35,091 nucleotides of DNA, taken from assembly GCA_020629935.1 (NCBI GenBank), contig JAHDCJ010000048.1, positions 2,076 to 37,166 on the forward strand. Reading direction: 5' to 3'. Positions 19,462 to 23,587 of this stretch are shown here, in pieces. The translations under genes were made by a program, and so were the position numbers. Positions within the stretch are counted from its first letter, which is position 1, and every line of letters begins with the position of its first letter. The DNA is from Saprospiraceae bacterium. GTDB lineage: Bacteria > Bacteroidota > Bacteroidia > Chitinophagales > Saprospiraceae. The notes under the pieces were generated by a model. That model saw only the letters and a program-made list of their open reading frames with translations, was not told where the DNA came from and searched no databases.

Positions 19462-19893
19462 ATGAAAAATTTAAGTCTTATCGTTTTAATGATTGGCTTG
19501 TCCCTCTTTTTCTTCACTTCTTGCGAAAAAGAAGAAGCCACCCTTAATGATCATCTGATTGGAACTTGGAATGTCGTCGAAGTACAAGCCACAGTTTATT
19601 TGTTTGGTATTCCACTTTCAGACACAGATCAAGATCCAACAGGCACCATGACTTTTAATGATACCGGATGGGCTACACAAGATTATAGCTTTTCCATTTT
19701 AGATTCTATGTATACCCAAACAGGTTCATTTACTTGGAGACCAGACGGAGATCAAGTCTTTGTCAATGAAAATTTTTCTAATCCCTTAATTTGGAATCGA
19801 AGTATTAATGAAGCGAATATGCAAAAAGCAACCTACAGCGATACCATTTCAATCAATGATATTCGAGAATTTACCCTAACATTTACGCGCTAA
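19462..19893 (+). CDS. Small lipoprotein, lipocalin-like
   Basis: The 143-residue product has a lipobox (FFTSC) with Cys21 and a mature domain beginning LIGTWNVVEV, a pattern of the lipocalin-like beta-barrel lipoproteins common in Bacteroidota. The rest alternates short strands (TMTFNDTGWATQ, GSFTWRPDGDQVFV). Ligand and role are unknown. It is convergent with the arginine deiminase gene and their stop codons overlap, so the two coding regions share 4 bases. Confidence 0.8.
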   Translation: MKNLSLIVLMIGLSLFFFTSCEKEEATLNDHLIGTWNVVEVQATVYLFGIPLSDTDQDPTGTMTFNDTGWATQDYSFSILDSMYTQTGSFTWRPDGDQVFVNENFSNPLIWNRSINEANMQKATYSDTISINDIREFTLTFTR

Positions 19894-21161
19894 ATACTTT
19901 CGCGTTCGATTGGACAAGTCATACAGTGACTTCCTCCTCTTGCTCGCGATAATTCGCTTGAAGGCAGTGTGATAATGGTTTGTTTGACCTCGTCAATATT
20001 AAAACCTTCTTTCCTTGACTGCGCAATTAAATCTTCTGCGGAAAGAATTTGATAGCCCTTTTCTTTGAAAGCTTCAATGGTTAATACATTTCGATCGTAC
20101 ATTAGGGCGATGCCCGGTTTTAAGGCTACTAGATTGCAACCGTCAGTCCATTGCTCACGCTCTTGGTAAGGAGAAACGCCTTTACCGCTAAAAACAAAAT
20201 CCATCTTTTCATTGAGCTCCTGAATCATAAAATCACGAATGGAATTATAGATTCTTTGGCTCCCATCATGAGAATATACAATGGCATTACTACTAATCCC
20301 ATCAGCAACTAATGGCTTAAAAGCAGCTACATGATCAAAATTGACTTGCGTAAAAATTGTATCAATATGCATAAATGATCGGTCTGCAGGGATATTGATT
20401 TGAACAACATTTTTTACTACACCTTTTTTAAATAAGACTTCACTCAATAATTTTATGGCATGTCCGCTGCTACGTTCACTACAGCCAACCAATAAATAAT
20501 CAGGATGGATCATCATGATATCACCTCCTTCTATAGAAACCATCTCACCTTTTCTAGAAGGTGGGAATTCATCAATTTGATTGAGATTAATAATTTTTCC
20601 TTCCTCTTTTAAGCTGGTAAAAATAGGGTGGGACCAAAAAATAAATCTAGTCAATAAATTTTCTCTGAAACGAGCCGACTTGGCTGCTTTGGTAATGATC
20701 ACATGATCATTTACCACCACCGCTATATCTCTGGTAAAGATAAAATTAGGAATAGGATCAAATAAAATGCAATCTTCTTTTTTACAAAATCCTGTAATTA
20801 AAACATCTCTTAATTCTTCATCGCCCAAACTAGAAAGGATTTTGGCATCTCGTTTAGGAAGTTCTTCAAAATCAACCACCATTGAAATAATCAAATCTTT
20901 GGTTTCTTTATCATGTTGAATAGACTCTAAAAGCAAGGTTTCAATTTCAAGGACATTATCTTCGCCTAAAAATAGGGCTAATACATTTTTAAAGATGTCA
21001 TGTTCTTTTTGCATTTGTTCCAAAAAGACGATGTCATCAAATAAAAGTTCTTCTGCACGCTTTGGAGAAATTCTTGCAATCCCTGCATCAGGACGATGTA
21101 CAATTACTCGTTTGAGTTTTCCAATTTCAGAAGATACAAATACACTACCTTTAGTTGTCAT
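19890..21161 (-). CDS. arcA: Arginine deiminase
   Basis: The 423-residue product hydrolyses arginine to citrulline and ammonia. All catalytic residues are visible: Asp145 in FTRD, Glu211 in SIEGGD, His265 and Asp267 in MHIDTIFT, and Cys413 in GGSHCMTCP close to the C-terminus. The length is near the family norm. No arcB, arcC or arginine/ornithine antiporter is next to it, so it is not a classical ADI operon here; related guanidine-modifying enzymes share the fold, but the full motif set favours arginine deiminase. It is divergent from the sulfur-carrier operon leader. Confidence 0.92.
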   Translation of the reverse strand: MTTKGSVFVSSEIGKLKRVIVHRPDAGIARISPKRAEELLFDDIVFLEQMQKEHDIFKNVLALFLGEDNVLEIETLLLESIQHDKETKDLIISMVVDFEELPKRDAKILSSLGDEELRDVLITGFCKKEDCILFDPIPNFIFTRDIAVVVNDHVIITKAAKSARFRENLLTRFIFWSHPIFTSLKEEGKIINLNQIDEFPPSRKGEMVSIEGGDIMMIHPDYLLVGCSERSSGHAIKLLSEVLFKKGVVKNVVQINIPADRSFMHIDTIFTQVNFDHVAAFKPLVADGISSNAIVYSHDGSQRIYNSIRDFMIQELNEKMDFVFSGKGVSPYQEREQWTDGCNLVALKPGIALMYDRNVLTIEAFKEKGYQILSAEDLIAQSRKEGFNIDEVKQTIITLPSSELSRARGGSHCMTCPIERESI

Positions 21162-21326: not shown

Positions 21327-21357
21327 TTGATTTTTTCCAAAAATGTTATTATGTTTG
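21327..21357 (+). promoter_or_regulatory. Promoter of the cysteine-leader/sulfur-carrier operon
   Basis: TTG at 21327-21329, a 20-base spacer and TATGTTTG at 21350-21357 match TTG-N20-TAnnTTTG exactly. Transcription should start about 21364, some 16 bases before the first leader ORF, so the leader peptides lie at the very 5' end of the mRNA as expected for attenuation. Confidence 0.75.
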
Positions 21358-21379
21358 GGTATACAAAACAAATTAAGAA

Positions 21380-21445
21380 ATGAGTTACAATATTCAAATT
21401 ACTTTTCCTCTTCCAAATTGTTGTTGCTTTGCTAATCTCAATTAG
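21380..21445 (+). CDS. Leader peptide 1 with three consecutive Cys codons
   Basis: A 21-codon ORF starts at ATG 21380 and ends at TAG 21443. Residues 14-16 are Cys-Cys-Cys (TGT TGT TGC at 21419-21427), in the context PNCCCFAN. It begins about 16 bases after the predicted transcription start and is followed by a strong terminator 31 bases after its stop. Cysteine is normally rare, so a run of three in a 21-residue ORF at the head of a sulfur-metabolism operon points to a regulatory leader peptide whose translation senses Cys-tRNA. A functional metal-binding micropeptide is the alternative but less likely given the paired RNA structures. Confidence 0.78.
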   Translation: MSYNIQITFPLPNCCCFANLN

Positions 21446-21489
21446 ATAAGGAAGTAGAATATTGTAAAACGTACTTAAACGGTCTTCCT
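21410..21489 (+). promoter_or_regulatory. Competing RNA pairings of attenuator 1
   Basis: Segment 1 (CTTCC, 21410-21414, just before the Cys codons) can pair with segment 2 (GGAAG, 21450-21454). Segment 2, extended by one base to AGGAAG (21449-21454), can instead pair with segment 3 (CTTCCT, 21484-21489), which is the left arm of terminator 1. A ribosome waiting at the Cys codons would cover segment 1 and free segment 2 to block the terminator; a ribosome reaching the stop codon would cover segment 2 and allow termination. Confidence 0.6.
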
Positions 21490-21510
21490 AGTTATAGGAA
21501 GACCGTTTTT
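21477..21510 (+). terminator. Attenuator terminator 1
   Basis: A perfect 13-bp stem AAACGGTCTTCCT/AGGAAGACCGTTT with an AGTTAT loop ends in TT and continues TATTTT. It stands between the first Cys leader and the second, upstream of the whole operon, so it must be conditional for the genes to be expressed from the promoter at 21327. Confidence 0.88.
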
Positions 21511-21523
21511 ATTTTAATAAAAA

Positions 21524-21592
21524 ATGATCAATTTAATCACTTGTTGCTGTTGTGGAATAACCTTTAATACCAAAGGGAGCATTGGCATGTAA
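21524..21592 (+). CDS. Leader peptide 2 with four consecutive Cys codons
   Basis: A 22-codon ORF starts at ATG 21524 and ends at TAA 21590. Residues 7-10 are Cys-Cys-Cys-Cys (TGT TGC TGT TGT at 21542-21553), in the context ITCCCCGI. It begins 14 bases after the first terminator and is itself followed by a second terminator before the first structural gene. The sequence is unlike leader 1 outside the Cys run, so the pair looks like independent evolution or strong divergence around a conserved functional core (the Cys codons). Confidence 0.78.
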   Translation: MINLITCCCCGITFNTKGSIGM

Positions 21593-21633
21593 TTGAATAT
21601 AAAAAAATAGTTTTCATGAAGCCTTTCCTTTGG
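21561..21633 (+). promoter_or_regulatory. Competing RNA pairings of attenuator 2
   Basis: Segment 1 (CCTTT, 21561-21565) can form a 5-bp hairpin with segment 2 (AAAGG, 21572-21576). Segment 2 in its longer form (21570-21579) can instead pair with 21624-21633, giving ten pairs including two G-U, seven of them an uninterrupted Watson-Crick block CCAAAGG/CCTTTGG. That region is the inner left arm and loop of terminator 2. A ribosome held at the Cys codons (21542-21553) would shadow segment 1 and leave segment 2 free; a ribosome at the stop would cover segment 2. Confidence 0.65.
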
Positions 21634-21647
21634 GAAAGGCTTTTTTT
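21619..21647 (+). terminator. Attenuator terminator 2
   Basis: A 10-bp stem AAGCCTTTCC/GGAAAGGCTT with a TTTG loop runs into seven T residues. It lies 27 bases after leader 2 and 42 bases before the first structural gene. Confidence 0.88.
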
Positions 21648-21688
21648 ATTGGTAATAATCCTATTTAATTAACTAAAAGAATAACAAA

Positions 21689-22135
21689 ATGTTGCAATCC
21701 AATTTAATAATTCAACCGAATGTAATCGAAAAAATAAAAAGCCACTTAAGGCATCATTACCCAGAAGTAGGCGTAGGTTTTTTATTTGGAAATGAAAAAA
21801 ATGCACGCACCGTTTCCTACGCTTATCCAGTACAAAATATCCGAAAAAATAATCATTTAAAAGGTTATCAAATTGATCCCTTGGATTATTTAAAAGCCGA
21901 ACAATTTGCAGAAGAAAAAGGATTGCAAATCCTTGGTATTTATCAGTCTTCGGTCGATCAACCCAACCATCTTTCTAATTTAGATCAACATTATGCCCTT
22001 CCTTTTTTCTCTTATTTGAAAGTGGCAGTTTATAAAGGAGAAATCAAAGAAATCACCTCTTTTCGTTTTCATGATCAATTGAAACGATTAGCAGAAGAAC
22101 CCATTTTTTCCCCTAAAGCACAACTTAATTATTAA
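21689..22135 (+). CDS. Mec+-like JAMM-fold protein with a degraded metal site
   Basis: The 148-residue product aligns along its length with Mec+, the JAMM peptidase that frees cysteine from the CysO-Cys adduct in mycobacteria. Matching landmarks are HYPEVGVGFLFG (Mec+ has HPDEACGVLAG), IYQSSVDQPNHLSNLD (Mec+ has IYHSHTATEAYPSRTD) and FSYLKVAV for the following strand. The catalytic Glu is replaced by Val27, and the two zinc-binding His by Gln86 and Ser88; the Ser87, Ser96 and Asp99 positions are kept. It therefore looks like a non-catalytic member, perhaps a binding or scaffold protein for the sulfur carrier. It is the first structural gene after the tandem attenuators; the sulfur-carrier gene follows after 25 bases. 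Confidence 0.75.
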   Translation: MLQSNLIIQPNVIEKIKSHLRHHYPEVGVGFLFGNEKNARTVSYAYPVQNIRKNNHLKGYQIDPLDYLKAEQFAEEKGLQILGIYQSSVDQPNHLSNLDQHYALPFFSYLKVAVYKGEIKEITSFRFHDQLKRLAEEPIFSPKAQLNY

Positions 22136-22160: not shown

Positions 22161-22433
22161 ATGACAAAGATAAAAATACCTGCCCCGCTTCGAAAATACA
22201 CCAATGAAGAATCGGTTATTTCTACCAAGGCACAAAACCTTTTTGGTATATTTGAATACCTCGTATTTAAATATCCACAGATTAAAACACATCTTTTTAA
22301 TGAAAAAGCGGAGTTACATGCTTTCCTCCGTATATTTGTTGGAGATAAACCAAATGAAGTTAATGGAAAAGAAGATGTCTTATTAGAAAAAGATCATCTC
22401 ATAAGAATTATTCCAGTAATTAAAGGCGGTTAA
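22161..22433 (+). CDS. CysO/ThiS/MoaD-family sulfur carrier protein
   Basis: The 90-residue product has the ubiquitin-like fold of small sulfur carriers and ends in Gly-Gly, the residue pair that is adenylated and converted to a thiocarboxylate by an E1-like enzyme. The segment AFLRIFVGDKPNEVNG followed by HLIRIIPVIKGG resembles CysO and MoaD more than the shorter ThiS. The partner enzyme is the next gene, 17 bases downstream. With a Mec+-like neighbour and cysteine leader peptides upstream, a CysO role in cysteine synthesis is the best inference; supply of sulfur to molybdopterin or another thio-compound is the alternative. Confidence 0.88.
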   Translation: MTKIKIPAPLRKYTNEESVISTKAQNLFGIFEYLVFKYPQIKTHLFNEKAELHAFLRIFVGDKPNEVNGKEDVLLEKDHLIRIIPVIKGG

Positions 22434-22450
22434 CATTACAATAATCATGT

Positions 22451-23587
22451 ATGGAAGACCAATTATTTTCTAAAGAAGAATTTGCTCGATATAACCGACA
22501 TATCATCATTCCAGAGTTTGGTTTGGAAGGGCAACAAAAATTAAAAGCCGCCAAAGTATTAGTCATTGGATCGGGTGGTCTGGGTAGCCCTATGCTTTTA
22601 TATTTGGCCGCAGCAGGAGTAGGTACCATTGGTATCGTTGATTTTGATGTCGTTGAAGATAGTAATCTCCAACGACAAGTTCTTTTCGGAACAGAAAGTA
22701 TTGGAAAACCAAAAGTACAAGAAGCAAAGAAACGATTATTGAGTTTAAATCCTTATATTAAAGTGATTACTCACGAACTTGCTTTAAGCGCAGACAATGC
22801 CTTAGCCATTTTTAAAGATTACGATTTAGTAGCAGATGGAACCGATAATTTTCCTACAAGATACCTAGTAAATGATGCTTGTGTATTGACAGGTATTCCC
22901 AATGTTTTTGCTTCGATCTTTCGTTTTGAAGGACAAGTTTCGGTGTTTAATTTTCCTTTAGAAAATGGAGAACGAGGGCCCAATTATCGAGATGTTTTTC
23001 CAGAACCGCCACCTCCAGGTTTAGTGCCAAATTGTGCAGAAGCAGGGGTTTTAGGTGTTTTGCCAGGAATAATTGGCAGTCTTCAAGCGAATGAAGTAAT
23101 CAAAGTGATTACAGGAATAGGAAGCCCGTTGGCAGGTAAGCTTTATATTTTCGATGCCTTATCTTTTCAATCTAGAATACTTAAAATTAAACGAAATTCC
23201 AATCGTGCACCTATCGAAAAATTAATTGATTATGACGCTTTTTGTGGAGCTAAATCTAAGAATGATTCCATTCCTGAAATTACAGTACAGGCCTTTGACC
23301 AATTGAGGAAACAAGGCGATGATTTTCAATTAATAGATGTTCGTGAACTGATGGAATATGAGCATGTAAATTTAGGGGGTACATTAATTCCGCTAGGCAG
23401 TCTATTGCAAAAGGTCGATCAAATTGAACGCGACAAACAAGTTATTGTCCTTTGTAAAAGTGGTATTCGATCTGCTAAAGCCATAGAAGTGCTCAATGAA
23501 AAATTTGGTTTTACCAACCTCTATAATTTAAAAGGAGGAATCATTGCTTTTGCAAAAGAGATTGATGCTACTTTGCCTACCTATTAG
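22451..23587 (+). CDS. MoeZ/MoeB-like E1 adenylyltransferase-rhodanese
   Basis: The 378-residue product joins an E1-like adenylating domain (about 1-250) to a C-terminal rhodanese domain (about 275-378). Visible are the nucleotide loop GSGGLGSP, the DNFPTRYLVNDAC segment, Cys195 in PNCAEAGVLG, and the rhodanese active-site Cys335 in VLCKSGIRS. The first zinc-binding cysteine pair of E. coli MoeB is absent (FPEPPPPGLVPNC), as in MoeZ of mycobacteria. Such enzymes adenylate the C-terminal Gly of a carrier and deliver rhodanese-borne sulfur to it, here presumably to the product of the preceding gene. It is the last gene of the operon. Confidence 0.93.
   Translation: MEDQLFSKEEFARYNRHIIIPEFGLEGQQKLKAAKVLVIGSGGLGSPMLLYLAAAGVGTIGIVDFDVVEDSNLQRQVLFGTESIGKPKVQEAKKRLLSLNPYIKVITHELALSADNALAIFKDYDLVADGTDNFPTRYLVNDACVLTGIPNVFASIFRFEGQVSVFNFPLENGERGPNYRDVFPEPPPPGLVPNCAEAGVLGVLPGIIGSLQANEVIKVITGIGSPLAGKLYIFDALSFQSRILKIKRNSNRAPIEKLIDYDAFCGAKSKNDSIPEITVQAFDQLRKQGDDFQLIDVRELMEYEHVNLGGTLIPLGSLLQKVDQIERDKQVIVLCKSGIRSAKAIEVLNEKFGFTNLYNLKGGIIAFAKEIDATLPTY

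Follow-up and report, generated by a model that had tools for sequence, protein, structure and literature searches.

Ribosome-mediated transcription attenuators of the trp/his type are known from the Enterobacteria. Bacteroidota rarely use Shine-Dalgarno starts, and the cysteine pathway of M. tuberculosis is made up of Mec+, CysO, CysM and MoeZ. A study of 2005 drew attention to polycysteine leaders in Actinobacteria, and its passage dealing with Mycobacterium reports no conserved terminator hairpins there (PMC1262725). A polycysteine leader before cysA2 in mycobacteria is mentioned in the relevant part of another report (PMC4633059), and cysteine-responsive attenuators were treated by Canestrari (2020), as cited in PMC13236596, under a title that speaks of leaderless ORFs. 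In Rhodobacterales the uORFC-8-2 motif upstream of cysS combines tandem Cys codons with an intrinsic terminator, and the section describing it proposes attenuation through Cys-tRNA (PMC8632094). The leader of Salmonella mgtCBR carries tandem attenuators for different signals (ATP and proline), which its authors, in the passage on this arrangement, called a singular example (PMC3641672). For amino-acid operons of F. psychrophilum, control through leader peptides and attenuation was suspected in a passage that does not mention cysteine (PMC9723704). The leading matches obtained from the open-access literature contained no description of polycysteine attenuators, or of a cysteine terminator/antiterminator switch, in Bacteroidota.

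The window, the whole stretch of 35,091 nucleotides of Saprospiraceae DNA analysed here, contains an intergenic region bordered by a divergent arginine-deiminase-like gene (19890-21161, minus strand) on one side and by a JAMM-family gene (from 21689, plus strand) on the other. On the plus strand a promoter sequence is followed, in this order, by a short ORF with three consecutive Cys codons, an intrinsic terminator, a second short ORF with four consecutive Cys codons, a second terminator with its T7 tract and the JAMM gene (Table 1). The promoter (TTG-N20-TAnnTTTG), the two leader ORFs with their lengths and Cys runs, and the sulfur-carrier operon behind them are present as described in the initial annotation; the two terminators and the T7 tract were likewise found, with stems of 14 and 11 pairs in place of the 13 and 10 claimed. 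This arrangement very probably works as a series of two ribosome-mediated transcription attenuators, each of which senses charged tRNA-Cys.

Table 1. Features of the leader region and of the operon behind it; positions are counted from the first nucleotide of the window.
Feature	Position	Strand	Remarks
Promoter, Bacteroidota type	21327-21357	+	TTG 21327-21329, 20 nt, TATGTTTG 21350-21357
Leader ORF 1, MSYNIQITFPLPNCCCFANLN, 21 aa	21380-21445	+	Cys codons 21419-21427 (CCC); position and Cys run conserved in relatives
Unit 1 segment 1	21385-21413	+	21385-21395 pairs with 21457-21467; 21402-21413 partly pairs with the antiterminator 21445-21454; fold 21361-21510
Unit 1 antiterminator GATAAGGAAG	21445-21454	+	complementary to the left arm of terminator 1; weak alone, p 0.18
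Intrinsic terminator 1	21477-21508	+	14 pairs counting A/T ends; -21.6 kcal/mol, z -7.9
Leader ORF 2, MINLITCCCCGITFNTKGSIGM, 22 aa	21524-21592	+	Cys codons 21542-21553 (CCCC); conserved in relatives
Unit 2 antiterminator CAAAGGGAG	21571-21579	+	complementary to the left arm and loop of terminator 2; p 0.02
Intrinsic terminator 2, then T7	21618-21643	+	11 pairs; -16.9 kcal/mol, z -4.0
JAMM-family protein, probable pseudoenzyme	21689-22135	+	without the metal-binding His and the aligned Glu; Prok-JAB E 2.5e-4, under the curated cut-off
CysO/ThiS/SAMP-like sulfur carrier	22161-22433	+	ends exactly in Gly-Gly
MoeZ-like ThiF + rhodanese adenylyl/sulfur transferase	22451-23587	+	

Like the trp/his attenuators, the locus combines a short leader ORF, a run of regulatory codons, alternative pairings and an intrinsic terminator before a biosynthetic operon. 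It differs from them in its Cys codons, which stand in place of Trp or His, in its occurrence in Bacteroidota, often with two units in series, and in its compactness, the antiterminator being placed within the ORF or at its end. Like the mycobacterial and actinobacterial leaders as the passages cited above describe them, the leaders found here carry runs of Cys codons ahead of cysteine and sulfur genes; unlike in those leaders, about 20 nt separate the -7 element from the ATG, and in most units an intrinsic terminator is present along with an antiterminator that matches it. The independence from mycobacteria assumed in the initial annotation fits with this difference, conserved terminators being denied for Mycobacterium in the passage concerned (PMC1262725). 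uORFC-8-2 likewise combines tandem Cys codons and an intrinsic terminator; the section describing it gives two Cys codons, a single unit and an aminoacyl-tRNA synthetase gene in Alphaproteobacteria, whereas a JAMM-family gene and not cysS follows in the window. As in the part of the mgtCBR study cited, two ORF-containing attenuators share one leader, but both units of the window carry the same codon in place of two signals. The four activities of the M. tuberculosis pathway recur in the downstream operon of the relatives; unlike there, they form one conserved operon under proposed attenuation, and the window copy is without CysM and has a degenerate JAMM. The class of mechanism is already known; new within the reach of our searches are the lineage, the terminator-based cysteine version on these operons, the serial layout with one signal and the regulon.

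The position of the transcription start was predicted from the promoter sequence. The predicted -7 element ends at 21357 and the first ATG stands at 21380, about 20 nt further on, so that the leader would not lie at the 5' end of the transcript. The pattern TTG-N17-23-TAnnTTTG occurs within 150 nt of the first leader at 18 of the 75 loci from which the 97 units described below were taken (the window included), against 0.65 expected from letter shuffles. As far as promoter sequences can tell, this recurrence 5' of unit 1 in the relatives speaks against a start downstream of 21650, one of the outcomes which the initial annotation had named as refuting its reading. A reading in another frame, as a poly-Leu ORF with its ATG at 21343, was rejected, since this ATG precedes the predicted start and interrupted runs in the relatives hold the Cys frame (CCPTCC, CCCCNCCC, CCAACC).

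In each unit, the initial annotation had proposed, a segment after the Cys codons can pair either with an upstream segment or with the left arm of the terminator. The upstream part of this claim was borne out in unit 1, where the post-Cys segment sits in a long, very stable hairpin with the first half of ORF 1 (z -8.05 for the whole fold, 21361-21510); the pairing of its antiterminator with the terminator arm was no better than in shuffles (-9.1 vs -7.2, p 0.18). In unit 2 it was the terminator-arm pairing that stood out (-13.0 vs -8.4 kcal/mol in shuffles, p 0.02), and no convincing leader hairpin hiding the antiterminator was seen (z +0.3). Terminators 1 and 2 were the only terminator-like sites between 20500 and 22500, a number which is unremarkable since shuffles gave 1.0 (sd 0.9). 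The 3' end of terminator 2 lies 45 nt upstream of the JAMM gene start. Both terminators outrank the competing pairings in stability, thus switching would have to be kinetic. Taken one by one, the units of the window are suggestive, and the case rests on the comparative set.

According to the mechanism proposed, the ribosome would pass the Cys codons and reach the stop codon when Cys-tRNA is ample, and it would there cover the antiterminator or leave it in its own hairpin. With the antiterminator covered or self-paired, terminator 1 or 2 would form and transcription would end before the operon. When Cys-tRNA is scarce, the ribosome would stall on the Cys run, the segment beginning about 12 nt downstream would be free and would pair with the terminator's left arm, and the polymerase would read on. 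Since the polymerase must pass both units, the operon would be fully on only if both sense the shortage, and the effects of the two units would presumably multiply.

The JAMM gene was found at E<=0.001 in 10 of 60 genomes, its own included. In eight of the nine other genomes the gene order is cysM-JAMM-cysO-moeZ, with the carrier and MoeZ fused in one of them (L009), and the same eight loci have a polycysteine leader with a terminator upstream, which in two stands ahead of a peroxiredoxin-like gene. The ninth genome (G040) has a divergent JAMM, and neither cysM nor a leader was found within the stretch seen. The scan of named genomes comprised 80 loci, the best 80 of 551 relatives, some of them from genomes already included among the 60. 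In these best 80 of 551, cysM lies 5' of the JAMM and carrier genes at every locus (partial at cut contigs), and moeZ is also present at 76, the exceptions (L051, L059, L107, L113) being short contigs. The presence of cysM in the operon of the relatives gives cysteine, as the signal, a firmer basis than the window could provide by itself.

Upstream DNA was usable at 75 of the 80 loci, the other five (L046, L066, L084, L102, L108) being cut by the contig end at cysM. A polycysteine leader with an intrinsic terminator was present at 69 of these 75 loci from the best 80 of 551 (66 passed the strict scan for leader and terminator, and L098, L103 and L109 were added on inspection), a polycysteine leader without terminator at four (L089, L099, L100, L115), and neither was found at two loci with the operon (L083, L086). 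The initial annotation had proposed such a search of related genomes, naming a lack of conservation of the Cys codons and pairings as one of the outcomes that would refute its reading; both were found to be conserved. On the operon strand of the 80 loci (best 80 of 551), 87 units were counted, including three non-leaders by eye, and on the other strand three, all in the Fodinibius loci L089 and L099. A chance occurrence of leader plus terminator was rejected on these numbers, and conservation places the arrangement beyond chance. Codon-run ORFs, intrinsic terminators and an exclusive antiterminator beyond the stalled ribosome, which characterise amino-acid-leader attenuators, are all found at the level of sequence and fold; downstream genes making the sensed amino acid are found in the relatives (cysM, 80 of 80, best 80 of 551) and not in the window. 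Among cultured genera, carriers are Saprospira, Fulvivirga, Paraflavitalea and Agaribacillus.

Some of these loci deserve separate mention. The leaders of the four terminator-less loci belong to the Fodinibius group, which we take to be of the phylum Balneolota; they end in CCCCCS or CCCCCCS at the stop codon, about 110-230 nt before cysM, and in some of them a TTACCGG/CCGGTAA-like hairpin with no U tract follows, perhaps a different, terminator-less control. On the minus strand of L089 (3552-3662), L099 (3459-3575) and L115 (3471-3578) there is a divergent leader in which Met and Cys codons are mixed (e.g. MPMCMCCMCCMC). Its terminator was scored in L089 and L099, the gene following it resembles a thiosulfate sulfurtransferase by eye, and a joint Met/Cys sensor is possible. 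The contig of L073, filed under a Gammaproteobacteria MAG, has the same operon, leader and terminator and may be misbinned or transferred. In L122, L121 and L062 a peroxiredoxin-like gene (with a 1-cysPrx_C domain in L007) stands between the leaders and cysM, thus the regulon may include this gene.

The pairings were evaluated over 97 distinct units, i.e. the 100 listed minus three non-leaders (L067 and L097, far from the operon, and the minus-strand unit of L122); the minus-strand units of L089 and L099 are outside this set. Only identical peptides were removed, and the close relatives which remain are not independent. In each unit the segment from the last Cys codon to the terminator was paired with the left arm and loop of the terminator and compared with 100 dinucleotide shuffles. 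The mean pairing with the own arm was -15.4 kcal/mol, against -9.0 in the shuffles and -10.4 with the arms of other units, both Wilcoxon tests giving about 1e-17 on units that are in part related. The pairing exceeded the shuffles at p<=0.05 in 76 of the 97 units and did not in 21, and the own arm was among the best tenth of all arms in 58. The left arm was preferred (-11.4 vs -7.4 for the right-arm control), and the longest uninterrupted helix had a mean of 8.4 bp vs 5.4 in shuffles, helices of at least 8 bp being present in 67 of the 97 units and in 6.7% of the shuffles. Over the 97 units as a whole, the three-way logic put forward for the window holds statistically, but either unit of the window displays just a part of it clearly.

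The pairing starts at a median of 12 nt after the last Cys codon if the whole duplex is considered and of 13 nt (interquartile 10-15) for the core helix, compared with 20 nt (8-32) in shuffled segments. A distance of 12-13 nt past the last Cys codon should be approximately that of the leading edge of a ribosome with this codon in its A site. In 91% of the units the antiterminator segment has already begun where the stop codon ends, so a ribosome at the stop would cover it. The left-arm base near the apex of the terminator varies (C, A, G, T) with matching partners in the antiterminator and the right arm; these positions were taken from the best duplex, for which shuffles are the proper control.

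Folded without the terminator, leader and spacer were more stable than their shuffles (mean z -1.47 over the 97 units), the shuffling also breaking the codons. Antiterminator bases were paired upstream in 74% of cases vs 54% with the upstream part shuffled, and the upstream partners were located at the position of the stalled ribosome in 72% vs 59%. When a narrower test considered just the core of the antiterminator, the effect was small (z between about -0.4 and -0.6, p 0.004 and 2e-5); it was clearer in the folds of the whole leader region. The protector pairing (1:2) appears enriched over the set, to this small extent in the narrower test, and it is clear in unit 1 of the window and not in unit 2. 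Covariation, which the initial annotation had suggested looking for, was examined in an alignment of 14 units picked out of 19 listed, with the segments ACCATTCC, GGAAAGGC, GCCTTTCC and GGAARGGC. Pairing was high (87% of the cells for 1:2, 93% for 2:3 and 98% for 3:4), yet compensatory changes affected no more than 1 to 2 pairs per helix, with G-U exchanges making up many of them; the covariation score was equalled by 51 (2:3), 25 (1:2) and 13 (3:4) of 500 shuffles.

The doubling described in the initial annotation recurs in the relatives. Two polycysteine leaders are present at 28 of the 75 loci (from the best 80 of 551), in a looser count made by eye which omits weak second ORFs in L073, L097, L114 and L119, and both terminators were scored in 21 of these 28. 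Among the family-level loci L231-L251, a set overlapping the named loci, 18 of 21 have a leader and 14 of those 18 have two; the three leaderless ones have a short or gene-interrupted upstream stretch. A MoeZ tree with 74 rows requires 12 changes of the two-leader state, vs 21.5 in shuffles, at least 5 being forced by starred branches, thus the doubling was gained or lost repeatedly. A -7 element within 120 nt of the second unit was found in none of 22 cases, which is weak on its own since just 1.96 were expected. At the 22 loci with two scored units, the median number of residues after the last Cys is 4 in unit 1 and 11 in unit 2, unit 1 being the shorter in 20. Because of this systematic difference the two units may form a gate of two stages that differ in threshold.

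The polycysteine ORFs might instead encode small functional proteins, co-transcribed with the operon and binding metals or acting in redox binding, with hairpins that are ordinary terminators. Cys-rich peptides can bind metals, and the conserved position of the leader ORFs would suit such a role. However, the peptide is highly variable outside the Cys run while the post-Cys codons remain complementary to the terminator, and the pairing keeps a near-fixed distance from the Cys run; we therefore regard this explanation as very unlikely. Cysteine-responsive translational control or redox sensing as in mycobacteria, in which the hairpins would be secondary, agrees with the four Fodinibius-group loci that have a polycysteine leader and no U-tract terminator. 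It agrees also with the mycobacterial leaders, which have no conserved terminators in the passage of PMC1262725 and the control of which is named translation attenuation where PMC13236596 cites Canestrari 2020. An intrinsic terminator nevertheless follows the leader at 69 of 75 loci (from the best 80 of 551), its left arm matches the antiterminator in most units, and terminator 2 of the window ends 45 nt before the gene start, all of which makes translational control or redox sensing very unlikely.

The hairpins could also belong to a protein- or metabolite-binding leader (PyrR-like, riboswitch or T-box) in which the Cys codons are incidental. A known Rfam element was discarded, the search with Rfam 15 having given 0 matches at the gathering score in the window and four related loci. 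The sub-threshold matches, among them PyrR with 34.8 bits against a cut-off of 54, would favour a leader of this kind and may reflect a layout resembling terminator and antiterminator. The Cys run, on the other hand, is the feature common to the leaders, and its interrupted forms stay in the Cys frame, so that a binding leader appears extremely improbable. Attenuation by a ribosome stalled for want of Cys-tRNA is the explanation we prefer.

The operon of the window departs from those of its relatives in several respects. Both His of the HSHP motif are replaced in its JAMM protein, by Q and S, and Glu is missing at the aligned site, whereas HSHP and Glu are kept in eight of nine aligned JAMM relatives, the ninth (L010, G040) also departing; judged from these residues, the protein is a probable pseudoenzyme. 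The carrier stops at Gly-Gly, where five aligned relatives have one to three extra residues. That of L006 likewise ends in Gly-Gly beside an intact-looking JAMM, thus the lost tail need not accompany a lost JAMM. The MoeZ of the window is the longest branch of the MoeZ tree (0.89), and cysM is absent from the window operon. For CysM, the searches of its own genome (an assembly 94.7% complete) gave no more than a CBS-type enzyme, distantly related, and two PLP-enzyme matches that were weaker; they gave no second carrier gene at E<=1 and no siroheme reductase homologue. The 38 runs of four Cys codons scanned in the same genome (30 loci plus 6 stretches) included a leader with a terminator only at the window locus. 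With the degenerate JAMM, the Gly-Gly carrier and the missing cysM, the cysteine-releasing step has perhaps been lost in the window. The attenuators are retained despite the missing cysM and the degenerate JAMM, and we infer that the operon has changed its function with cysteine or sulfur supply still being the signal.

A search for runs of five Cys codons in 30 genomes, with 80 stretches scored, yielded 13 units of leader plus terminator, six of which were judged to be attenuators (L134, L136, L157, L201); the other seven were set aside, mostly as chance. The attenuators of L136, L157 and L201 precede siroheme sulfite/nitrite reductase genes, followed in two cases by a gene that by eye is uroporphyrinogen-methyltransferase-like. 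When the genes were searched first, 13 strong reductase loci were obtained from 60 genomes. A polycysteine leader and terminator were present at 11 of the 13, once in a weak form (L219), and no leader was found at L218 and L220; after removal of the three loci first met by the codon search, eight of ten remained. Nine further units, without the three reductase loci already counted, gave a pairing of -16.3 vs -10.4 (Wilcoxon p 0.004) with starts at 8-16 nt, and five of the nine reached p<=0.05 singly. The reductase is nearest to NirA in NCBIfam, below the cut-off, and since a Cys leader precedes it, sulfite rather than nitrite would be its substrate. The JAMM operon and a strong reductase never occurred together in one of the 60 genomes, a count to which no significance test was applied, and the two could represent alternative routes for sulfur that share one type of control. 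In L134 (271-1474, plus strand) a seven-Cys leader and terminator stand before a gene for an ATP-grasp, RimK-like ligase, under the family cut-off. L182 (minus strand), one of the seven set aside, has a 16-residue ORF with five Cys at 280-330 in reversed coordinates and a terminator of -25.4 kcal/mol before a gene for a small membrane-like protein, and may be a real attenuator.

In a wider view, which we hold with evenly balanced confidence, the Bacteroidota would possess a cysteine regulon controlled through polycysteine attenuators and comprising CysM-JAMM-CysO-MoeZ, the siroheme reductase and possibly others. Its attenuators would often stand as two of the same signal in series, forming a gate that perhaps has two stages of unequal threshold; in the lineage of the window the gate would have persisted after the loss of the enzyme it once controlled and would now govern a carrier and a MoeZ protein that serve sulfur transfer in another role. 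The spacing between the last Cys codon and the antiterminator, nearly constant at about 12-13 nt, looks like a ribosome ruler, and the natural series with one and two units could be used to ask why identical sensors are stacked in evolution. The locus and its relatives offer a directly testable account of how these Bacteroidota may control their cysteine and sulfite metabolism.
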